From the NCBI GenBank assembly GCA_026014685.1, contig JAOZHW010000012.1, positions 1 to 64,000 on the forward strand: DNA of 64,000 nt. Direction: 5' to 3'. Source of the stretch: Candidatus Bathyarchaeota archaeon. Its GTDB lineage: Archaea; Thermoproteota; Bathyarchaeia; Bathyarchaeales; Bathycorpusculaceae. The notes beneath the pieces are model-generated. The model had not been told where the DNA came from, ran no database searches, and saw only the letters and a list, made by a program, of their open reading frames with translations. Positions 11,152-47,093 of the stretch are shown piece after piece. The translations under genes were made by a program, and so were the position numbers. Numbering within the stretch: position 1 is the first letter of the stretch; each line of letters opens with the position of its first letter.

Positions 11152-11296
11152 TGGCGGGCGGGGAGGGATTTGAACCCTCGACCCCCAACTTAGGAGGCTG
11201 GTGCTCTATCCAGCCCAAGCCAGAAAATCCGAGTACCCCCCACTTGTGGAGACACAAAGGAAAGCGGCTTGAGTATCCGTACTGAGCTACTCGCCC
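11152..11296 (-). tRNA. tRNA-Arg(CCT) with D-loop intron
   Basis: The minus strand reads GGGCGAGTAGCTCAG, then an insertion, then AGAGCACCAGC CTCCTAA GTTGG, a T-arm GGGTTCAAATCCC and CCGCCCGCCA with encoded CCA. Anticodon loop CTCCTAA gives CCT. Removing 67 bases leaves 78 bases that align to the intron-free tRNA-Arg(TCT) at 23243-23320. The insertion interrupts the D-loop rather than position 37/38. A TATA-like TATATTTAA lies about 30 bases upstream of the 5' end. Confidence 0.92.
11208..11274 (-). other. Predicted archaeal tRNA intron in the D-loop
   Basis: The 67-base insertion is bounded by a GGATA repeat (ACGGATACTC versus CTGGATAGAG), so the exact cut sites are ambiguous by about five bases. 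Its ends CTCAAGCC and GGCTTGGG pair for eight base pairs, consistent with a relaxed bulge-helix-bulge substrate for the archaeal splicing endonuclease. Confidence 0.75.
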
Positions 11297-24386: not shown

Positions 24387-24411
24387 TTTATAGGGTTGGA
24401 TGGATAATCCA
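24387..24411 (+). promoter_or_regulatory. TATA box plus palindromic operator, site 1
   Basis: TTTATA is followed by GGGTTGGATGGATAATCCA; the perfect palindrome TGGATAATCCA occupies 24401-24411, its centre 19 bases after the TATA start. The same palindrome core at the same distance occurs at sites 2 and 3 near 37.1 and 37.4 kb. The palindrome overlaps the expected transcription start, so repression by a dimeric regulator is likely. Confidence 0.7.
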
Positions 24412-24515
24412 CCACTAATGGGGACATGCATGAAAACACCAACAAAAACCGAACAAACCTCACTATCTCATCTGAAATCAGCCTTTTACAAACTCGCAAC
24501 CAGAGGTCACTTACG

Positions 24516-25736
24516 TTGAAGAAACCTATCATAGCCTTTATCCTTGCAGCATTGATCCTTGCCTCCTCTCTTTATGGCGTCTACAGCCTGATTTACATGG
24601 CATCCCCTTCTACATCATCCCCTCCGCTATCCAACTCAACACCCACCCCTACACAAACCCTGCCAACGACAGCTCCAACACAATCTGCGACATCAAACCC
24701 AGCAGCCGCGCCCACAACACCACCAACCAAGACACCTGAATCTACCACATCGTCAAGGTCAACGTCTTCGTTTTATCCGATTGAAACAATTATCACTGAA
24801 CAATCGCCATCATATGTTATTATAAAAGATGTATACGGCAACGATGTCAATGTCACCCTTCCAGTGAACCGTGTTGTTTCCATTACCAGTGGTGTTACAG
24901 AAATAATCTACGCAATCGGTGCAGGAGACAAAGTAGTGGGCCGCGATTCATATTCTGTTTTTCCTGATGCCGCCTTGCAAGTGCCCATCGTGGCGCAATC
25001 CTCCGCAAGCCCAAATACGGAACTAATAGTAGACTTAAAACCTGACCTGATAATTGCGGACACTATGCTAAGCAACAGCACTAAAGCCTCTCTTCAAGCA
25101 TACCTCGGTGTGCCCGTGCTCATCCAAAGTGCAACCCAATCCGACCTTGTTGTGCCATTGGTAAAAGCCCTCGGTGCAGTTATGCAAAAAGAGCAGACCG
25201 CACAAGAGTTGGTTAATTTTATGAATGGTGTTACTAATCTTGTTGCAGACCGCCTCAAGAATCTGTCAGAAAGTCAGAAACCCCTAGTTTACTATGAATG
25301 GAATAAGGCTTGGTATAGCACTAGCAGTTTGGGTTTGCCTCATCAAATGATCGTTGACGCTGGCGGGATCAACCTCGCTGCAAATGGGACCGTAGCTTAT
25401 CCGACTTTGAGTCCTGAATATGTTTATGAACGCAATCCAGACAAAATCATCCGTATTTTAAGCGACAAAGCCCACAACATCACGGACTTTCAAGTTCTCC
25501 GCCAAGAGGTAATGACCCGCACTGGATTGGTTGGAACAAAAGCAGTCCAAAACCAGGAAGTATACATTCTGAGCAGCGCTTTACGAACGGGGATACGAAA
25601 CCCCATTGGTTTGCTGACTATGGCTAAATGGCTCCATCCGACCCTCTTTGCCGATGTAGATCCGGTTGCGTTGCATAGTGAGATGATTCAAAAATTCTTT
25701 AAAGAATCCTTGACGGGAACATATTCGTACCCCTAA
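24516..25736 (+). CDS. BtuF/FepB-like ABC substrate-binding protein, copy 1
   Basis: About 406 residues from the TTG giving MKKPIIAFILAALILASSLYGVYSL, preceded by AGAGGTCAC; this matches the start of the paralogue at 39418. An ATG 90 bases earlier (24426) is also open. A signal/anchor helix is followed by a Thr/Pro/Ser-rich linker and a periplasmic-binding-protein fold: NRVVSITSGVTEIIYAIGAGDKVVGRD, PDLIIAD, AGGINLAANG, NPDKIIRIL. It captures corrinoid or Fe-chelate for a transporter. No permease is adjacent; with the shared operator it may feed the BtuCD at 40.6 kb. Confidence 0.85.
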   Translation: MKKPIIAFILAALILASSLYGVYSLIYMASPSTSSPPLSNSTPTPTQTLPTTAPTQSATSNPAAAPTTPPTKTPESTTSSRSTSSFYPIETIITEQSPSYVIIKDVYGNDVNVTLPVNRVVSITSGVTEIIYAIGAGDKVVGRDSYSVFPDAALQVPIVAQSSASPNTELIVDLKPDLIIADTMLSNSTKASLQAYLGVPVLIQSATQSDLVVPLVKALGAVMQKEQTAQELVNFMNGVTNLVADRLKNLSESQKPLVYYEWNKAWYSTSSLGLPHQMIVDAGGINLAANGTVAYPTLSPEYVYERNPDKIIRILSDKAHNITDFQVLRQEVMTRTGLVGTKAVQNQEVYILSSALRTGIRNPIGLLTMAKWLHPTLFADVDPVALHSEMIQKFFKESLTGTYSYP

Positions 25737-35965: not shown

Positions 35966-36868
35966 TTGTTGGCGAATTGGTTGACTGCTCAAACTTGCCA
36001 TCTGCCAGATGGACGCAAACTCGCATACACAACCGTCGGCGAAGGTTACCCTGTGGTGTACTTTCATGGAACTGCCAGTAGTCGCCTCGAAGTGTTGCTT
36101 CTCCAAAAACTCGCAGAATGCGGTTTGAAGCTTATCGGTGTGGACCGACCCGGGTATGGTTTATCCACCTATAAACCTCGAAAAAGCCTCTCTGACTTTA
36201 ACGGCGACTTGAACTGTTTAGCTGATGCTTTGGGGCTGGAAAAGTTTGCGGTTTTAGGCTGGTCAGGCGGCGCCGTATTCGCATTGGCCTATCTAGCAAA
36301 CAACCCACACAGAGTATCCAAAGCCGTTGTAGTCGCTGCACCCTGCTTACCCTTCGACGTTTCAACCGCCCACAACACACCCCTCGCCAAACATCTGATG
36401 AGGTTTCCAAAAATCGGAGAATTCGCCATGCGTCACCTCAGCCGCCAGCTGCTCAAAGCGAACGGTAACCCACAAGCATTCTTGAAAACCCCGCAAGGCA
36501 AACAGTTGCTCCATGGCTGTTCAAAAACAGATTTAGCTTTCCTCCATGACCCATCTTGGGTTGGGCTGATGTACCAATCTATGGCTGAAGCATTCCGACA
36601 GGGCAACGGTGGAGTAAGAGCCGTGGTCGAGGAGCATCAGCTGTTCATGAAACCTTGGACGTTGTCTTTCGAAGCGGTTGGCGAGGGCCAATTGTGGATT
36701 TGGCACGGTTCCGACGACAAAACTTGCCGAGTCGAAAACGCCTACGAGCTTGCGCGGTCGGTGCCTTCGGCGCGGTTGGAGATTTTTGGGGGTGCTGGAC
36801 ATTTTGTTATGTTTGAGAATCTGGGGCGTTTGGGGCAAACTCTATTATTGCCTTGTGGGAATGCATAG
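35966..36868 (+). CDS. Alpha/beta hydrolase
   Basis: About 300 residues from TTG (a second TTG is next). Oxyanion HGTASS, nucleophile elbow GWSGGA (Ser about residue 101), acid in HGSDDKTC and catalytic His in GAGHFVMFE. Belongs to the broad esterase/lipase/haloalkane-type superfamily; no signal peptide, so cytoplasmic. Substrate unknown. It runs into the next small gene with a 16-base gap. Confidence 0.87.
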   Translation: MLANWLTAQTCHLPDGRKLAYTTVGEGYPVVYFHGTASSRLEVLLLQKLAECGLKLIGVDRPGYGLSTYKPRKSLSDFNGDLNCLADALGLEKFAVLGWSGGAVFALAYLANNPHRVSKAVVVAAPCLPFDVSTAHNTPLAKHLMRFPKIGEFAMRHLSRQLLKANGNPQAFLKTPQGKQLLHGCSKTDLAFLHDPSWVGLMYQSMAEAFRQGNGGVRAVVEEHQLFMKPWTLSFEAVGEGQLWIWHGSDDKTCRVENAYELARSVPSARLEIFGGAGHFVMFENLGRLGQTLLLPCGNA

Positions 36869-36884: not shown

Positions 36885-37001
36885 ATGGCTGATTTGAAGG
36901 GTTGTCCGTTTGGGCAAGACATAAAGAATGATTGTAAAAACTGTGACTACGGTGATACTAACCATTTTGATGCGGCGACTGGGCAATGTGTTAAGCGTTA
37001 G
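36885..37001 (+). CDS. 38-residue Cys-rich peptide
   Basis: MADLKGCPFGQDIKNDCKNC with a later Cys near the end (GQCVKR). AAGGTGG stands seven bases before the ATG, a good ribosome-binding site. Four Cys and an Asp-rich centre suggest metal binding. It is 16 bases after the hydrolase, probably co-transcribed. Family unknown. Confidence 0.65.
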   Translation: MADLKGCPFGQDIKNDCKNCDYGDTNHFDAATGQCVKR

Positions 37002-37089: not shown

Positions 37090-37119
37090 TTTATAAGCAA
37101 TGGATGGATTATCCATCCA
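37090..37119 (+). promoter_or_regulatory. TATA box plus palindromic operator, site 2
   Basis: TTTATA (37090-37095), then the perfect 19-base palindrome TGGATGGATTATCCATCCA (37101-37119), its centre 20 bases after the TATA start. The strongest of the three operator copies. There is no ORF behind it; the predicted transcript is the structured RNA at 37118-37253. Confidence 0.75.
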
Positions 37120-37253
37120 ATACAGGTGAATTGCGCGAGCAAGCTCTGAGTGGTTTCTGCCCCTGCTCAGCAGTTTGCTCGCATCTATCATAGATCGCCC
37201 AAGGCGAAGCCTGTCGGGGGTGCCGGTTATCCTGGGCCGGTTGCCCCTTTTTG
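37118..37253 (+). ncRNA. Putative operator-controlled structured small RNA
   Basis: Downstream of site 2 the sequence is gene-free but folds strongly: GCGAGCAA (37135) with TTGCTCGC (37175), enclosing CTGAG/CTCAG; ATCTA-TCA-TAGAT (37183-37195); CGCC-CAA-GGCG (37196-37206); and a final hairpin of GGGG, CCGG against CCGG, CCCC (37217-37247) followed by TTTTT. The largest ORF is seven codons. It does not fit B12-riboswitch, SRP or RNase P consensus motifs that I know. A regulatory RNA co-controlled with corrinoid genes is the best reading; ends are approximate. Confidence 0.6.
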
Positions 37254-37360
37254 ATTTGCGTTTTCTGGCGGGGTGTTTTTTTGAAAGGTTGGGTTTTTGT
37301 TTGGTTGGTTTTATTCAACTTAGTTTGTTCAACTTGAGATTAACTTTTGTTTAACTAAGG

Positions 37361-37388
37361 TTTATAAGTTTTTGTTGGATAATCCAAC
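37361..37388 (+). promoter_or_regulatory. TATA box plus palindromic operator, site 3
   Basis: TTTATA followed by the perfect 15-base palindrome GTTGGATAATCCAAC (37374-37388), centre 20 bases after the TATA start and six bases before the GTG of the ChlID gene. The transcript would be almost leaderless. Upstream, TTCAACTTAG and TTCAACTTGAG are further direct repeats (37314-37337). Confidence 0.75.
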
Positions 37389-37393
37389 CAACC

Positions 37394-39412
37394 GTGGAGA
37401 CTGAACAATTGGGCAACAAAACCATCTACCCCTTCAGCGCCATAGTCGGCCAAGAAAAAATGAAAACCGCACTAATCCTAAACGTCATCAACCCCAAAAT
37501 CGGCGGCGTACTCCTCAGAGGCGAAAAAGGAACAGGCAAATCCCTAACCGTCCGCGCCCTAGCCAACCTCCTACCAGAAGTAGACACCATCGCTGATTGC
37601 CCCTTCCACTGCGACCCCACCCACCCCAAAGACGCCTGCGACGCATGCAACGCCAAAATCGCGCGCGGAGAAAAACTCATGGTCACAAAACGCCCAGTAT
37701 CGGTTGTAGAGTTGCCCGTCGGCGCCACTGAAGACCGCCTCGTAGGCACAATCGACATAGAGAAAGCCATCAAAACTGGCGAAAAACACTTTGACCCCGG
37801 CATCTTGGCGCAGGCAAACCATAACCTCCTCTACATAGACGAAGTAAACCTCCTCGACGACCACCTCGTAGATGTCTTGCTGGATGCTGCAGCGATGGGA
37901 GTAAACTATGTAGAGCGCGAAGGTGTCTCTTTTAGTCATCCTTCTCAGTTCGTTTTGATTGGCACGATGAACCCTGAAGAGGGTGAACTTCGACCACAGT
38001 TGCTTGACCGTTTTGCCCTTTCCGTTGAAGTTAAAGGCATACCCTACAAAGAAGCCCGTGCTGAAATTGTGCGGCGCCGCATTGCTTTTGAAAGCGACCC
38101 AGTCGCCTTCATCGCTGCTCAAAGAGAGAGTCAAGAGCAAATGCGTCAAAAAATCGTTTCCGCTACCAAACTTTTGCCTAAGGTAGTCTTATGCGGTGAA
38201 CTGCTTGATCTTATAACACAAATTTGTACCGACTTCGCCGTTGACGGGCACCGTGCAGATATCGCTATGTACAAGACTGCCTGTACGCTTGCTGCTTTCA
38301 AGGGGCGGGTTGATGTTACCGAAGAAGATGTCAAGGAAGCAGCTGAGTTTGTGCTTCCACATCGTCAGCGAAGGCAGCCTTTTGAGGAACCCAAAATGGA
38401 GCAGCAGCAAGTCAATGAAAGCATTGACCGATGGAACAAGAATCAACAAACACTGCCCAAAGAAAATGACGTTTCCCAAAATCCTGATGATTCACCCAGT
38501 GAACAGCAAGAACCTACAAAAGAACAAATTTTTCAAGCCGATAAACCCTACGCCGTTAAGCCTTTGACTACCCCTGTTCTTGACGAAATCCAGCGAAACG
38601 GCTCAGGAAGACGGTCAAAGACTCTTAGTGATTCAAAAAAGGGCCGCTACGTAGCAAGCATGATTCCCAAGGGAAAAGTTGCCGATTTGGCTTTTGATGC
38701 AACCCTCCGCGCGGCGGCACCTTTTCAGAAAAGACGAAGAGAGGAAAGAAACGATCAGCAAACAGCCTTTTTGATTGAACGCAGCGATTTGCGTGAAAAA
38801 GTCAGAGAAACAAAAATGGGTAACTTGATTCTATTTGTGGTTGATGCCAGCGGCTCAATGGCGGCAGAAGAGAGAATGAGCGCCACAAAAGGTGCCATTC
38901 TTTCTCTTCTGCTAGATGCCTATCAACGACGCGACCGCGTGGGTCTCATTGCGTTCCGTAAAGACAACGCCGAACTGGTGTTGCCGCCGACCAATTGTGT
39001 GGAGTTGGCAGAAAAATACTTGGCTAAGCTTCCTACAGGCGGAAGAACTCCGCTGGCTCATGGTCTAAGACTGGGTTTAGATACAGTTAAGTTTTGGAAC
39101 AAAGACGGCAAAGACATACCTTTGCTTGTGTTGGTTTCCGATGGCCGCGCAAACGTTAACCTCAACGGTGGAGACCCTGTTGAAGAAGCAAAACGGATTG
39201 CCCACCGTATAGGTTCTGAAGGAATCCAAACCATCGCTGTTGACACTGAGAAGGGTTTTCTGAGTTTTGGTTTGGTTAGGCAGATTTCTGAGGCTATGGG
39301 CGGTAAATATCTGCGTTTAGAAGAGTTAAGTGCTGCGCCGATTGTGTCTGCTGTTCGTGAGAACTTGTTTGATGATTATAGGATTTTTTTAGATAATCCT
39401 GTTAGGAGGTGA
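37394..39412 (+). CDS. ChlI-ChlD-type metallochelatase ATPase fusion
   Basis: 672 residues from GTG. The N-terminal AAA+ half is ChlI/BchI-like: Walker A GEKGTGKS (43-50), a Cys insertion CPFHC...CDAC (about 69-84), [15 protein letters not shown] (Walker B) and [19 protein letters not shown] Pro/Gln-rich linker (about 345-400) leads to a ChlD-like von Willebrand A domain with MIDAS VDASGSM (about 484). It drives metal insertion by a CobN- or ChlH-type subunit; CobN is encoded 3 kb downstream in the same operon. The ATPase is therefore most likely a cobalt (or nickel) chelatase partner. Confidence 0.88.
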
Positions 39413-39417
39413 AACAT

Positions 39418-40653
39418 TTGAAGAATACAACAATTATAGCTGCAACCTTCATTGTTGGAATAATAATCATTGCATCCATCTATGGCGTTTACAGTCTATA
39501 CAGTCCAACTTCCTCTTCCTCATCGACTTCCAACCCCACAGTTAATCCAACTGCTTCTCCGACAGCCACTGAATCACCCACCTCAACGGCGACTATCAAA
39601 CCAACAACTAAACCCACAACATCATCCAACACACAAACCAGTTCAACCAGTTCCACGCCAACTCCAACTCCTGCTCCAACCGAAGTAACAGTTACCGACG
39701 GCGCAGGAAACACCATGACTATACCTCTCCCAGTAACCAGAATAGCTGCTCTTGACGGCGGCATAGCAGAGATTCTATGTGCCATGGGCTGCCGAGATTT
39801 AATTGTTGGGCGTACGGATAGTTGCACGATGCCCCCGTCAATTCTAAGTGTTAAATCATATGGGGAAAATGATTATGCACCAAACGTAGAAGCCCTGATA
39901 ACACTTGACCCAGACGTCATATTTGCCAGTTCAATGCTACCATACAACCCCACTGCTTATCAGCAACTCAAGAATGCAGGCATCCCCGTCTACATCATCG
40001 ACACAACCACACCCGAACCGACAAATCCTTCAAAGTTAACCAAAGATGAACTCTACGCGCTAAGCACCCCTATAGATTTCACGTGCGGCTTAATGCAGAA
40101 CTTTACCAAAATCGTCGGTCACCAAACTGAAGTAGACTCATACGTTAAATGGGCGCAAAACTACAACAAAATCGTTAAAGACCGCATATATGCTTTGACG
40201 CCTTCTCAGCAAGTTAAAACCTACCTTGAATGGTACGGTTACGGTCGAACTTTCGTTACGGCTAGTGTTTACCAAGCTGGCGGAATTAACATTGCTGAAA
40301 ACCAAACAGTTTACTCCCCTACACTTAGCACTGAATTTATCGTTGAACAAAATCCTTCTGCGATAATCGTGCTTATCGCAAGTCCGTCACATAACATAAA
40401 CGACTTTATCGCCGCAAGAAACGACGTGTTAAACAGAACCTCGCTTCAGAATGTTGATGCAGTTAAGTATGGCCGGGTCTACGTCTGCGACTTTTACGCC
40501 AGAAGCGGTGTACGATGCGTAATCGGCTACCTCTACTGGGCAAAGTGGCTTCAGCCAAGCCTATTCTCAGACATAGACCCAGCAATAGTGAATCAGGAGC
40601 TTAATCAAAAGTTTTTCGGAACCGCAATTGCAGGGACGTTTGCTTATCCATGA
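39418..40653 (+). CDS. btuF: BtuF-like corrinoid/chelate-binding protein, copy 2
   Basis: About 411 residues. TTG after a perfect AGGAGGTGA, giving MKNTTIIAATFIVGIIIIASIYGVYSL; the GTG nine bases earlier overlaps the previous stop and lacks this spacing. A membrane anchor is followed by a Ser/Thr/Pro linker and a two-lobe binding domain: TRIAALDGGIAEILCAMGCRDLIVGR, ITLDPDVIFASS, AGGINIAENQ, VEQNPSAIIVLIA. Partner of BtuC/BtuD next to it. Paralogue of the copy at 24516. Confidence 0.87.
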   Translation: MKNTTIIAATFIVGIIIIASIYGVYSLYSPTSSSSSTSNPTVNPTASPTATESPTSTATIKPTTKPTTSSNTQTSSTSSTPTPTPAPTEVTVTDGAGNTMTIPLPVTRIAALDGGIAEILCAMGCRDLIVGRTDSCTMPPSILSVKSYGENDYAPNVEALITLDPDVIFASSMLPYNPTAYQQLKNAGIPVYIIDTTTPEPTNPSKLTKDELYALSTPIDFTCGLMQNFTKIVGHQTEVDSYVKWAQNYNKIVKDRIYALTPSQQVKTYLEWYGYGRTFVTASVYQAGGINIAENQTVYSPTLSTEFIVEQNPSAIIVLIASPSHNINDFIAARNDVLNRTSLQNVDAVKYGRVYVCDFYARSGVRCVIGYLYWAKWLQPSLFSDIDPAIVNQELNQKFFGTAIAGTFAYP

Positions 40654-41726
40654 CCACAAAAGCTGAACTGACAAAACTCTACAATAAAGGCAAGAAGCGC
40701 AAACTTCTTGCAATTTTCTCTGTTTTTATAGCAATAATCATAGTTGTGCTTATCGCGATTAGTTTCGGCGCGGGTTCACCTCGGCTACCCGAAGCTCTAC
40801 AAGTCATTATTTCAAGGACTTTTCCATTCTTAAACCTCGATCCAGGGTCACCTTTAGCTCAAACTATAATCTGGGACATACGCTTTCCCCGCATCGTAAT
40901 GGCTTTGATAGCTGGAGCAGGTCTCGCAGCTGCAGGAGTAACCATGCAAGGTGTCCTGCGCAACCCCCTTGTATCCTCTTATGTTTTGGGGATTTCTTCC
41001 GCAGCAGGTTTCGGCGCCGCTTTAGCCATAGTTTTCGGAATAGGAGTTGTTTCTTTTGTCGGTGGATACTTGGTTATCGGTAATGCTTTCATTTTCTGCT
41101 TGCTTGCCATGGTAATTGTTTATTCGATTGCTCGCTTAAGGGGAATGTCCTCGGAAACGGTGATCTTGGCAGGGGTCGCTGTTGGTTTCCTCTTTTCTGC
41201 CCTCTTATCTTTGATTCAGTATATATCACCCGATAATAACGCGGTAACCGCGATAGTTTTCTGGCTTTTAGGCGGCCTCTACACGGCGACATGGGAAAAA
41301 ATCCTGATCTGTCTGCCTATAGTTTCGGTGACGATGATTTTGATGATGACTCAATCTTGGAACATCAACATTATGAGCATGGGTGAAGATGTGGCAACAA
41401 GTTTAGGCGTCAACTCTAAACGCGTCCTAACCGTAAACATGCTGCTAGAAACCATCGCGACCGCCAGTATAATCGCCTTCACAGGAATCATAGGTTTTGT
41501 GGATTTAATAGCCCCACACATCGCACGTATGCTGCTGGGTAGTGACCACCGATACCTTATCCCTTGCAGTATCGGCATGGGTGCCTTGATGCTTCTGGCA
41601 TCCGACACAGTGGCGCGGCTGATCATTATGCCCACTGAGCTTCCTGTGGGTATTTTAACGTCTCTATTGGGTGTCCCGTTCTTCATTTACCTTTTAGTGA
41701 GTAAACGGAGGAGATCATTCGGATGA
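40650..41726 (+). CDS. btuC: BtuC-type ABC permease
   Basis: 358 residues, about ten membrane helices. Characteristic motifs of the FecCD/BtuC family: FRPRI-like WDIRFPRIVMALIAGAGLAAAGVTMQGVLRNPLVSSYVLGISSAAGFGA and FTGIIGFVDLIAPHIARMLLGSDHR. Overlaps BtuF by four bases (ATGA) and BtuD by four. Moves cobinamide, cobalamin or an iron chelate inward; the adjacent CbiZ points to corrinoid. Confidence 0.92.
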   Translation: MTTKAELTKLYNKGKKRKLLAIFSVFIAIIIVVLIAISFGAGSPRLPEALQVIISRTFPFLNLDPGSPLAQTIIWDIRFPRIVMALIAGAGLAAAGVTMQGVLRNPLVSSYVLGISSAAGFGAALAIVFGIGVVSFVGGYLVIGNAFIFCLLAMVIVYSIARLRGMSSETVILAGVAVGFLFSALLSLIQYISPDNNAVTAIVFWLLGGLYTATWEKILICLPIVSVTMILMMTQSWNINIMSMGEDVATSLGVNSKRVLTVNMLLETIATASIIAFTGIIGFVDLIAPHIARMLLGSDHRYLIPCSIGMGALMLLASDTVARLIIMPTELPVGILTSLLGVPFFIYLLVSKRRRSFG

Positions 41727-42544
41727 AATTATGCATAAACAAACTAACCTTTAGCTATGGTCCAATCTCTATCCTCAAGGATGTTGAATTCGAAGTCGGA
41801 TTAGGCGAGGTGCTCAGCATCGTTGGTCCCAACGGTTCAGGCAAAAGCACCTTGTTAAAATGCATCAACCGAATCCTAAAAACCAAACATAACACCGTGC
41901 TCGTTGACGATCAAGACACCTGCAAAATGAACCTCAAAGAGCTATCTATGCTTATGGGGTATGTGCCCCAGAGTTCCTCAAGCACGTTTCCCTTCACCGT
42001 TTTCGACGTCGTTTTGATGGGAAGAAAACCCTACATACACTGGAACATAAGTGAACGGGACAATGAAATCGTTGCTGAGATGCTGGATTACCTCGGTATC
42101 GGTCACCTTGGGATGCGTCATTTCAACGAGCTCAGCGGTGGTGAACAGCAGAAAGTCATTATTGCTCGTGCTTTAGCTCAGCAGCCTAAACTCATGTTAC
42201 TCGATGAACCTACCAGTTCGCTTGACATTAAGCATCAGTTGGAGATTCTCTGTATGCTTAAGAGTTTAGCGAAGAGTAAGGAGCGTTCTGTTATTGTTTC
42301 TATGCATGACTTGAATTTGGCAAGCAGGTTTTCTGATCGTATGCTTATGCTAAAAAACGGCTGCGTATACGCCTTGGGCACCCCTGAAGAGGTTTTAACC
42401 GAGAAAAATATCGAAGCCGTGTACGGAATTAAGGTGAATGTTTCAAGCTCTTTTGTAGGTAAACCCCAAGTTACTCCAGTGATAAACGAAGTTGACTTTT
42501 TCTCAAACACAAAACTAACGCCAGTGTTAGAACAAAAAATTTGA
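41723..42544 (+). CDS. btuD: BtuD-type ABC ATPase
   Basis: 273 residues. Walker A GPNGSGKST (35-43), Q-loop in GYVPQSSSS, ABC signature LSGGEQQKV, Walker B LMLLDEPTSSLD, H-loop VSMHDLNLA. Family that drives corrinoid/iron-chelate import. Overlaps BtuC by four bases and a possible CobN TTG start by four. Confidence 0.92.
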   Translation: MKLCINKLTFSYGPISILKDVEFEVGLGEVLSIVGPNGSGKSTLLKCINRILKTKHNTVLVDDQDTCKMNLKELSMLMGYVPQSSSSTFPFTVFDVVLMGRKPYIHWNISERDNEIVAEMLDYLGIGHLGMRHFNELSGGEQQKVIIARALAQQPKLMLLDEPTSSLDIKHQLEILCMLKSLAKSKERSVIVSMHDLNLASRFSDRMLMLKNGCVYALGTPEEVLTEKNIEAVYGIKVNVSSSFVGKPQVTPVINEVDFFSNTKLTPVLEQKI

Positions 42545-42558
42545 CGAGGAAAACACCT

Positions 42559-45500
42559 ATGCCGAAAACAAAAATCGCAATCGTAACAACCATCCCCACT
42601 GACGCCATACCCGCCATAGAAGCAGCAAAAACAATTAACAAAAAAAACCCCAACACCATCGAACTTTGTCTGCGCACTGGCGGAGACTTCCGAGACTTTG
42701 GCACATTAGACGAATTCATAAACTTCGCAAAGACCGCACACATTGTGATTGTCCACTTGATGGGTGACTTGCCAGAGTTAGAAAAGCTGGTTGAAGCACT
42801 AAAAACCGCCAAGGTGCCGCTTATGGTTTCCGCTTCGTTTTTCGGCGCCAAAGACTACAACAAGTACTCCACGGTGGAAGCGGAGGACCGCAAAAAAATC
42901 TTTTTCTACCTCAACTACGGCGGAAAAAAGAACTTCACAAACCTCATGTATTTCCTCATGAGCCGCTTCACAGGCGCCAGTCACGACTTTGAGGAACCGA
43001 CCAAGCCGCTGTGGGAAGGCATCTACCACCCAGGTTTCTCCCACCTCCCAACACTTACAGAATATATTGAAAAGAAATTTGATCCTAAACGGGTAACCGT
43101 GGGCTTATGGTTCCACCAAAGCCACTGGCAAGGCGGCAACACAAGCTTCATCGACCACACCATACGCGAAATCGAAGCTCAAGGTGCAAACGTTTTGCCT
43201 GTGTTTTTCAGCGGTTCAAAAAACCCCAAACTCGGCATTAACGGTTTAGAATGGGTTATTGACAATTTCTTCCTAAAAGACGGCAAACCCATCATCGACG
43301 TCGTGGTGAGCTTGTTTTCTTTCTCTTTTTCCACTTGTCTCTCTGGCGCAGACGCATCTTTAGTCCTCAAAAAACTCAACGTACCCATAATCAAAGCCAT
43401 CCTCACTTGCAACACTGCTGAAGAATGGCGGGACTCAATTCAAGGCTTAAGCGTAATGGACATACCTGCCAACATCGCGATGCCTGAATTCGACGGCGCC
43501 CTGATTACTGTGCCCATTGCGGCTATGGATTGCTGCCAATTTAATTCCACTACAGGAACGCGACTAATCAAGTATGAACCCATTGCTGAGCGCACCCAGA
43601 AACTGGTCAGTTTAGCCATTAACTGGGGTAAACTGCGGCGTCTACCTAACAGCGAAAAAAAAGTAGCCATAATCTTCCACAACTATCCTCCAAGAAATGA
43701 CACGATAGGGCATGCGTTTGGATTGGATTCTTCTGCTTCTGTTATGAACATTCTTGAGGCATTGAAGAAAGAAGGGTATATGCTTGATTTTATGCCCGAG
43801 AGCAGCCAGAAGCTAATGGACACCATAATCAACGGGTTAACCAACGACCGTCGATGGGCAAGCCCTCAAGAACTCTCAGACCGCGCCTTAGACAAAATCC
43901 CAAGCGAAGAGTACGCGAAATGGTTCGATGAGTTACCCTTAGATGTCTCGGACAAGATGGATCAGGACTGGGGGGTGCATCCAGGCAAACTTTTCGTCTT
44001 CAACGGCAAATTGCTTGTCGCTGGAATAATAAACGGCAACGTCTTCATCGGGATGCAACCGCCACGTGGGTTCATGGAAACCTCCGCTTCAAGCCTCTAT
44101 CATAGCCCAGACATATCAATGCCCCACCATTACCACGCCTACTACCGCTGGATACGTGACGTATTCAAAGCCAACGTTATCATGCACATCGGCACACATG
44201 GCACCCAGGAGTGGTTGCCTGGTAAATCTGTAGGTTTATCGCGTAGCTGCCAATCCGACATAACCATCGCAGACATGCCAAACATTTACCCTTATGTGCA
44301 AACAAACCCCGGCGAGGGCACTCAAGCTAAACGTCGAGGCTACTGCTGTATCATAGAGTACTTGGTTCCCGCTATGCATAACGCTGACTCCTACGAGGAG
44401 CTCGCTAAACTTGAAGTTCAACTGCAAGAGTACTATCACGCTAAAACGGTTGACCCAGATAAAGTAGCTGTTCTGCAAAAGTTAATCTGGGAAAACGTGG
44501 TTCAAGCAAAACTGGACCAAGACTTAACAGTAACCCAAGAAACAGCATATGCAGATTTTGACTCTTTTTTAGAGAAACTCCACGCATACATCAACGAGTT
44601 ATCTGACGCGCAAATTCGTGACGGCCTCCACATCTTAGGCGAAGCCCCTACTGGTCTCCGCTTAGATGAATTCCTATTTACGTTGACACGGTTAAGCAAC
44701 GGGTCTGTGCCTTCGCTTCGAGAGGCGCTTGCGGAGTTGAAAGGCTACGACTACGAAGACCTGCTTGTACATAGAGGCAAACTCAACAGCGACGGGAAAA
44801 CTAACGGCGACCGACTCAAAGAACTAAACGCATTGGCTCTTGAGCTTATTCGGAGGTTTCATGCTGAAAACTTTAACACTCAAAACATCCAAAAAATCAT
44901 CATTGAAGTTCTCGGCAAAGACAGCTTCAAAATCCACAAATGCCTCTCATACGTCGGACTCTTTCTGGTTCCAGCCCTTAACGCTACTTCAGACGAATTA
45001 ACAAACACTATCTCAGCTTCTTCAGCTCACTACGTACCGCCTGGGCCTTCTGGTTCAGTCACGCGAGGTATGGCGGATATTTTGCCGACAGGCCGAAACT
45101 TTTACTCCGTAGACCCACGGGCAGTTCCCACCCCTGCATCTTGGGAGGTAGGAGTAGCCTTAGCAAACGCGTTGATTGAACGCTACCAAAAAGAAGAAGG
45201 CAAGTGCCCTGAGAACGTGGGCATCGTGATCTGGGCAACTGATACTATGAAAACCAAAGGCGACGACATCGCAGAGATCCTCTATTTGATGGGCACTAAA
45301 CCTGTTTGGGAAGGCTCCAGTGGCCGTGTCGTCGGCGTCGAAGTTATTCCAATTGAAAAGTTGAATCGCCCCCGAATCGACGTTACTGTACGTATAAGCG
45401 GGCTTTTCCGTGACACCTTCCCCAACGTTGTTCATCTCATCGACGATGCTGTCAGGTTAGTTGCAAGCCTAAAAGAGCCCTCCGAACAGAACTTTATAGC

Positions 45501-46329
45501 AAAACACGTAGAGACAGAAGTCAACGAACGCGCCGCAGAAGCCATAGATCCCGCTAAACTTCGTGAGGAGGCCTGCTACAGAATCTTCGGTGACCGCCCC
45601 GGCGCTTACGGTTGTGGGGTCAGTGAAGCTGTAGATTCGAAGAATTGGAAGGAGCAAAAAGACCTAAGCGACATTTACGTCAACTGGGGAAGCTACGCCT
45701 ATACGCGCAAAACTTACGGCCTTCAAGTGCCAAAGAAGTTCGAGCGTAGATTAAGCAAAATCAACGTAACCGTAAAAAACCAAGATTCACGTGAATATGA
45801 CATTCTAGACGGGGACGACTGGTACGACGCACATGGCGGAATGATTAACGCCGTAAAAGTCATCGGAGGAAAAGCTCCCCGCTCTTACTGCGGCGACAGC
45901 TCTGACCCCCGCCGAGTCAAGGTCAGAAGCACCGCGGAGGAAACCTGCCACGTTTTCCGTAGCCGTCTCCTCAATCCTAAATACATCGAAAGCATGAAGC
46001 GGCATGGCTACCAAGGCGCTGCGGACTTGTCTAGAAATGTGGATTTTGTTTTCGGTTGGGATGCCACCGTCGAGGTTGTTGAGGACTGGATGTATGAGGC
46101 TTTGGCTAATAAATACGTGTTAGACAAGGCGATGCAAGAGTGGCTCAAAGACGTGAATCCTCATGCCCTTCAGAACATGGTGGAGCGGCTTTTGGAAGCT
46201 ATTGAACGCGATATGTGGCAAGCGTCTAAGGAAATGAAAACTGAGCTTCAGAAGCTCTATCTAAACGTGGAAGGCTTGCTTGAGGACGCTAACGAAAAAG
46301 TAAACAACCAAAAGGAGAAGAAACAATGA
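42559..46329 (+). CDS. cobN: Cobaltochelatase large subunit CobN
   Basis: About 1256 residues, ATG with GAGGA upstream (a TTG 18 bases earlier overlaps the BtuD stop). Typical CobN/ChlH region: [97 protein letters not shown]. This is the substrate-holding subunit that inserts cobalt (or, in relatives, magnesium or nickel) into a tetrapyrrole with ATPase help from the ChlID protein. No de novo corrin-ring genes are in the window, so its substrate may be a salvaged or alternative tetrapyrrole. Confidence 0.92.
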   Translation: [1256 protein letters not shown]

Positions 46330-47093
46330 TTCAAGCTGTAACGAAATTTAAAGAAAACAAGTTGAACCTAAAACTAAAAGAAGCCAACGCAAGAGTAGTT
46401 TACCACAAATACGACGGCACACAGCTAAACACTACCCTTGTTTCTTTTAGCGAAAAAAGACGTGTACTCTCAACGTTAGACGGTATAAAACGCGTAAACA
46501 ACGTTGCCAACGTGTTTGTCCCAGACCCCTTATCAGGTAACATAATGACGCTGCAGAAGTATGCCCAGTTCGTAAAGCGCCTACCTGCCACCTTAGGTCT
46601 CCGTCTCAGCAATCTAACTTTCATGAGCACCGCAGTTAACATGGAAAAAGTAGCCTTCTGTGAAAAAACATACGAAGACTTTCATGTCTGCTGCATAGCA
46701 ACAGGTGGTGCAAGAAACAATGCTCTTCGCATGGGTGTAGATGAAGGGCAATGGGTCGAGAGGGCAACTGGTTTTCAGCCTAAACTTGGAACAATCAACA
46801 TCATTCTTCTGACCAATGTCACTTTGACTTGGGGCGCCATGGCGAGAGCCATAATGACAGCTACTGAAGCCAAAACCGCAGCACTTCAAGATCTAGACTA
46901 CCGAAGCACTCCCACGCCTCAGGTTCAGGCAACGGGCACAGGAACAGACAACATGATCGTTGTCTCCGGCGTAAACCCCAACATAGTCATCAGTCACACT
47001 GGTGGACACACCAAAATGGGTGAATTAATCGGTTTCACAGCAAAACAGGCTGTGACAGAAGCCCTAAAGAAACACGACAATCCAGAGGAGTAA
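46326..47093 (+). CDS. cbiZ: Adenosylcobinamide amidohydrolase
   Basis: 255 residues; ATG overlaps the CobN stop by four bases. CbiZ removes the aminopropanol tail of adenosylcobinamide (and adenosyl-pseudo-B12) to give adenosylcobyric acid for salvage. Family signatures: CIATGGARNNALRMGVDEG, GTINIILLTNVTLTWGAMARAIMTATEAKTAALQDL and QATGTGTDNMIVVSG. The N-terminal domain (about 1-90) is typical. It is the strongest evidence that the BtuFCD/CobN operon handles corrinoids. Confidence 0.9.
   Translation: MIQAVTKFKENKLNLKLKEANARVVYHKYDGTQLNTTLVSFSEKRRVLSTLDGIKRVNNVANVFVPDPLSGNIMTLQKYAQFVKRLPATLGLRLSNLTFMSTAVNMEKVAFCEKTYEDFHVCCIATGGARNNALRMGVDEGQWVERATGFQPKLGTINIILLTNVTLTWGAMARAIMTATEAKTAALQDLDYRSTPTPQVQATGTGTDNMIVVSGVNPNIVISHTGGHTKMGELIGFTAKQAVTEALKKHDNPEE

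Follow-up and report, generated by a model that had tools for sequence, protein, structure and literature searches.

In bacteria, corrinoid control is exercised mostly through riboswitches, and to our knowledge corrinoid control in archaea is poorly described. RyhB and the other Fur-controlled iron-sparing small RNAs (sRNAs) are made together with uptake genes when the metal is scarce and lower its use. The archaeon Methanosarcina mazei produces sRNA154 under nitrogen limitation, a 130-nt RNA with an NrpR operator in its promoter, the second loop of which masks a ribosome-binding site (PMC3177094, PMC11456600). In the case of EutX/Rli55, the RNA carries an AdoCbl riboswitch and EutV is sequestered (PMC6317780).

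The locus and its operator

The window, i.e., the whole stretch of DNA analysed here, comprises 64,000 nt of Candidatus Bathyarchaeota archaeon (positions 1–64,000 of contig JAOZHW010000012.1, forward strand; contig C12 of the genome labelled G000). An Rfam search revealed an archaeal LSU rRNA match where the window begins. A partial tRNA-like match on the minus strand at 11163–11222 (Rfam tRNA, 33 bits, positions 8–63), not called by ARAGORN, could represent either a fragment of a tRNA or a tRNA with an intron. The elements of the predicted RNA gene and of the regulon to which it appears to belong are as follows.

37090–37097, plus strand: TATA box TTTATAAG of the RNA promoter, read in the sequence, with a layout that recurs in relatives
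37101–37119, unstranded: operator, a perfect 19-bp palindrome TGGATGGATTATCCATCCA with the core TGGATTATCCA (sequence, inverted-repeat search, core enrichment)
37119–37252, plus strand: predicted small RNA of about 130 nt (fold statistics, 80% identity in G018)
37122–37214, plus strand: predicted four-way junction closed by the 6-bp stem P1, 37122–37127 with 37209–37214 (independent minimum free energy (MFE) folds of both species)
37135–37182, plus strand: predicted long hairpin P2, the largest element (MFE fold)
37183–37206, plus strand: predicted small hairpins P3 (AUCUA-UCA-UAGAU, invariant) and P4 (G018 alignment, consensus fold)
37217–37252, plus strand: GC-rich hairpin (37217–37247) plus T5, presumed terminator (sequence and fold)
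37373–37389, unstranded: second operator copy, around GTTGGATAATCCAAC, with the core at 37376, before the ChlID operon (sequence, core scan)
37394–47093, plus strand: operon of ChlID, BtuF, BtuC (FecCD), BtuD (ABC), CobN and CbiZ, a regulon neighbour outside the RNA (Pfam)
24401–25736, plus strand: operator core (24401–24411) and a BtuF-type binding protein gene (24426–25736) (core scan, promoter scoring)

The start of the RNA was placed about 25–30 nt past the TATA box (about 37119–37122) and its end at the T5 run (37248–37252). The operator lies between the TATA box and the predicted start and overlaps the latter, and this arrangement is identical in type in promoters of three other genomes, G018, G013, and G016. 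The TATA box and the perfect palindrome had both been noticed in a preliminary description of the locus and are indeed present, and the operator core that it reported before the ChlID operon and a distant BtuF gene was found again in the core scan (37376 and 24401).

The core TGGATWATCCA occurs six times in the whole genome G000, compared with zero for the reversed control. Five of the six sites are located in promoters, namely those of the RNA, the ChlID operon, two separate BtuF-type genes, and CbiM, while the sixth lies within an ORF. The four sites of G018 (zero for the reversed control) correspond to the RNA, ChlID, CbiM, and BtuF, and in other genomes of the genus the operator again stands ahead of CbiM and ChlID genes. 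Extended palindromes GGATGGATNATCCATCC are found in further families of the order ahead of ECF-transporter substrate components (L231, L232, L236), which are probably corrinoid transporters. This distribution supports the view that TGGATWATCCA marks a regulon for corrinoid/cobalt uptake and insertion, found across the order.

Predicted fold and conservation of the RNA

The MFE of the RNA is −63.7 kcal/mol, compared with −46.4 ± 4.3 for shuffled sequences (z = −4.04), and none of 200 shuffles was as low. An equally stable fold was found in none of the 2130 stretches of the same length (129 nt) sampled across both strands of the window, and the folding energy is still 4 standard deviations under expectation once G+C content is corrected for. 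The apical loop of P2, CUGCCCC (37157–37163), is C-rich, invariant in G018, and could possibly serve as a seed in this model of the fold. The two small hairpins and the GC hairpin with T5 listed in the preliminary description recur in our fold, but the long hairpin at 37135–37182 was not among the elements listed, and the closing stem, given there as 8 bp, has 6 bp in the MFE fold. The T-run of the presumed terminator is poorer in G018 (CCCCCTTCTATTT).

Just one alignable homologue was found among 257 genomes of the class, in G018, a member of Bathyarchaeota from the same genus (record JAMDCQ010000014.1), with 82% identity over 140 bases (blastn). The operator is identical there in 18 of 19 bases (95%). 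In the alignment of the two loci, the RNA is 80% identical, compared with only 56% for the intergenic DNA preceding it and 32% for the DNA that follows; therefore, the conserved block coincides with the operator plus the RNA. When folded independently, the G018 RNA gives the same predicted shape, and the invariant positions include junction and hairpin sequences, not the loops alone. In a consensus fold of the two species, both partners are changed in two base pairs and one partner in three, and a fold derived from one species alone leaves 3–7 broken pairs in the other. The covariation is not significant with two sequences (108 of 500 shuffles reach two two-sided changes) and is too thin to prove the fold. 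Thus, of the evidence from relatives called for in the preliminary description, the sequence is kept at 80% in G018, but the compensatory changes are too few for significance.

In the window, the RNA and ChlID share a strand, with the ChlID start codon following about 140 bp downstream of the RNA; the two operators are 271 bp apart, and a TATA box, an operator, and an upstream block belong to the ChlID operon itself. G018 has the RNA on contig C18 and ChlID on contig C14, and the genes on the far side of the RNA are oriented towards it. Since the RNA is kept in G018 away from ChlID and with convergent neighbours, it appears to be an independent unit, a stand-alone gene, and its adjacency to the chelatase in the window is incidental. 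The title under which the locus was initially presented therefore holds with respect to an undescribed structured RNA under a corrinoid-regulon operator, given its co-conservation in G018 and the lack of an Rfam match, but not with respect to the chelatase operon.

The alpha/beta-hydrolase gene and the 38-aa cysteine-rich ORF that precede the RNA in the window do so in G018 as well. This ORF (MADLKGCPFGQDIKNDCKNCDYGDTNHFDAATGQCVKR; window 36885–37001, L031 10500–10613, L095 1308–1421) is 95% identical in G018 and 87% identical in G006, has no Pfam match, and possibly encodes a small conserved metal-binding protein.

Searches of the RNA against Rfam gave no match at the gathering score, and at E values up to 5 the RNA region yielded only a chance match, to UCA1, located outside the RNA. 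Neither the cobalamin riboswitch and NiCo models nor those of SRP, RNase P, and guide RNAs matched the RNA, which bears out, at gathering and permissive thresholds alike, the initial impression that it resembles no B12 riboswitch, SRP, or RNase P motif. A covariance model of the RNA (R1), run over genomes of the genus, family, order, and class, matched only its two founders; a weak match in the class (G232, E = 0.12) lies within an ORF, lacks an operator, and was dismissed as chance. An exact-pattern scan of 84,980 species returned 61 matches, of which only the G018 record is real, and the same scan of a viral collection returned none. In the open-licence literature searched, neither this operator nor an RNA of the kind was found described for Bathyarchaeia. 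Judging from these searches, the operator signal and the RNA family are both new.

Of the operator-bearing promoters inspected across the genus, two others, one in G013 (L069/L226, z = −3.76) and one in G016 (L063/L227, z = −3.41), lead not directly into a gene but into a strongly folded stretch. Both stretches are apparently non-coding and not alignable with the window RNA, and an unfiltered R1 search against them and against the hydrolase loci of 12 genomes (G013 included) gave no match. They carry C-rich hairpin loops, CUGCCC in the G013 RNA and CUACCC in the G016 RNA. The G016 stretch may be a leader, since the hydrolase gene follows it. The operator-controlled RNA has a linked alpha/beta-hydrolase gene in all four genomes (window 35966–36868; L226, L227, L031), in G013 at a distance of 2.2 kb. 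The hydrolase is present in 24 of 32 genomes, and an RNA operator promoter lies within 1.5 kb of it only in G000, G018, and G016. The G013 and G016 stretches are suggestive of one RNA class together with the window RNA but do not prove it. The hydrolase gene is also linked to CbiM in G025 (L086), and a DUF1638 gene (L226 4741–5520) adjoins the operator-controlled RNA of G013.

A sequence block with the consensus TTCAACcTgtggTTAACTTtaGTTAAACgAAaG is found directly upstream of the TATA box in 21 of the 21 protein-gene promoters examined in the genus, with sites at 37315–37360 in the window, upstream of the BtuF promoter at 24.4 kb, in L057, L060, L065, L079, L081, and others; it is probably the site of a second regulator. 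A model trained on those 21 promoters, which score 36–53, assigns 47 to the ChlID promoter and 42 to the BtuF promoter of the window, while the four RNA promoters score −20, −10, 13, and −29 and are without the block. We had at first expected the RNA promoter to share this 11-bp repeat block of the protein-gene promoters, which the scoring ruled out. Therefore, the RNA appears to answer the operator and not whatever binds the block.

Proposed mode of action and its alternatives

The locus is very probably a real, operator-controlled RNA gene. On balance, we favour its interpretation as an archaeal small RNA under a repressor, made during corrinoid or cobalt shortage, for which we infer the repressor, the direction of control, and the action in trans; for the trans-acting antisense version of the RNA, the chances are slightly better than even. 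Since the operator overlaps the predicted start, the palindrome would be expected to bind a repressor and the RNA to go up under scarcity. With corrinoid or cobalt plentiful, the putative repressor would sit on the palindrome between the TATA box and the start; under scarcity it would leave, and the RNA would be made along with the uptake and cobalt-insertion genes. The transcript would fold as a four-way junction exposing the C-rich loop CUGCCCC and end at the GC hairpin with its U-run. Acting in trans, the loop could pair with G-rich ribosome-binding sites, for which it is a plausible seed, and such pairing could reduce the production of corrinoid-using proteins that the cell can do without, or else adjust the expression of the uptake genes. 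Target prediction covered 25 B12-binding loci together with five genes of the regulon or the neighbourhood and gave complementarity no better than background, and the best candidate, a radical-SAM pair (L282/L273), fell apart on inspection.

More tentatively, one could hypothesise that the RNA is a transcription-factor-controlled corrinoid/cobalt-sparing archaeal sRNA, the B12 counterpart of RyhB, belonging to a fast-evolving class in this Bathyarchaeia genus. The members of such a class, itself a speculative construct, would share only the promoter, the operator, and the C-rich loop, and would answer the repressor alone, without the second block.

An RNA regulated as described could instead bind a protein or a ligand and not mRNAs, as EutX/Rli55 does in bacteria. 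Such an RNA could sequester a regulator, or its four-way junction could sense corrinoid or cobalt and gate its own 3′ end. The compact junction followed by a terminator-like hairpin, the invariance of junction and hairpin sequences beyond the loops, and the absence of an mRNA target in the loci tested would fit this role, and EutX/Rli55 provides a precedent of a B12-linked sRNA that sequesters EutV (PMC6317780). However, no Rfam family, the cobalamin riboswitch and NiCo included, showed any likeness at E values up to 5, and a second sensor is not needed, since the promoter already has a corrinoid-regulon operator. We consider protein or ligand binding unlikely, in either of these forms.

Alternatively, the palindrome at 37101 could be an auxiliary ChlID operator acting by DNA looping, and the folded stretch an inert or decaying element. 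The spacing of the two operators and the small number of RNA homologues are compatible with this, but the RNA is 80% conserved against 32% for the DNA after it, and the operator–TATA–RNA unit persists in G018 without ChlID; the looping explanation is improbable.

A structured housekeeping or guide RNA (modification guide, processing) standing behind a corrinoid operator by chance would account for the high stability and for the failure to align between species, as fast-evolving guide RNAs can; this is very improbable, however, given the lack of an Rfam guide-RNA match, and a housekeeping RNA would be unexpected behind a regulated operator in four genomes.

Slimmer still is the chance that the transcript is a short mRNA for a small peptide or, as has been proposed for sRNA154, combines two functions. 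Dual function is possible for archaeal sRNAs (PMC11456600), and the region, initially described as about 135 bases without an ORF, contains a 29-aa ORF (37104–37193) with its ATG inside the palindrome. However, the start codon of this ORF lies ahead of the predicted start of the transcript, in G018 indels shift the frame so that a different reading of 15 aa results, and no other reading frame was seen kept there, so that the earlier claim stands as far as conserved ORFs are concerned.

Least probable, and largely refuted, is the possibility that the RNA acts in cis on the downstream ChlID operon, as a leader or attenuator: the RNA does lie just upstream of ChlID on the same strand with a terminator-like hairpin at its end, but neither a conserved position directly upstream nor a single transcript is indicated, since the ChlID promoter, with its own TATA box, operator, and upstream block, is separate, and G018 keeps the RNA between convergent neighbours with ChlID on another contig.

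Comparison with described systems

The window RNA resembles the cobalamin and NiCo riboswitches in its corrinoid/cobalt context and in its predicted multi-branched fold followed by a terminator-like hairpin, but differs from them in having no covariance-model match and in being a stand-alone gene in G018. With EutX/Rli55 it shares the nature of a B12-linked stand-alone small RNA; however, no AdoCbl riboswitch match was found in it, and its control appears to be exerted at a DNA operator.

Like sRNA154 and RyhB, the RNA is stand-alone, short, and structured, without a conserved ORF, and the regulon's operator is found in its promoter, at the predicted start. The likeness to RyhB is one of proposed logic only: RyhB is bacterial, Hfq-dependent, and concerned with iron, while corrinoid sparing by the window RNA is a proposal. 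The analogy with RyhB drawn in the preliminary description can therefore be refined, the archaeal sRNA154 under NrpR being the closer analogue. Both RNAs are archaeal, about 130 nt long, intergenic, and structured with loops, and both have a palindromic operator of a nutrient regulon in the promoter. They differ in the nutrient and the operator, sRNA154 belonging to the nitrogen regulon with GGTA-N6-TACC and the window RNA to a corrinoid/cobalt regulon with TGGATWATCCA; moreover, expression, phenotype, and targets have been demonstrated for sRNA154, while the window RNA is known here from its sequence.

The window thus defines, for the Bathyarchaeia, which are uncultured archaea abundant in sediments, a corrinoid regulon based on a DNA operator, and places a structured RNA within this regulon. 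If expressed as predicted, this RNA would be an archaeal sRNA for B12/cobalt economy, extending the design known from sRNA154 and RyhB to a new nutrient.
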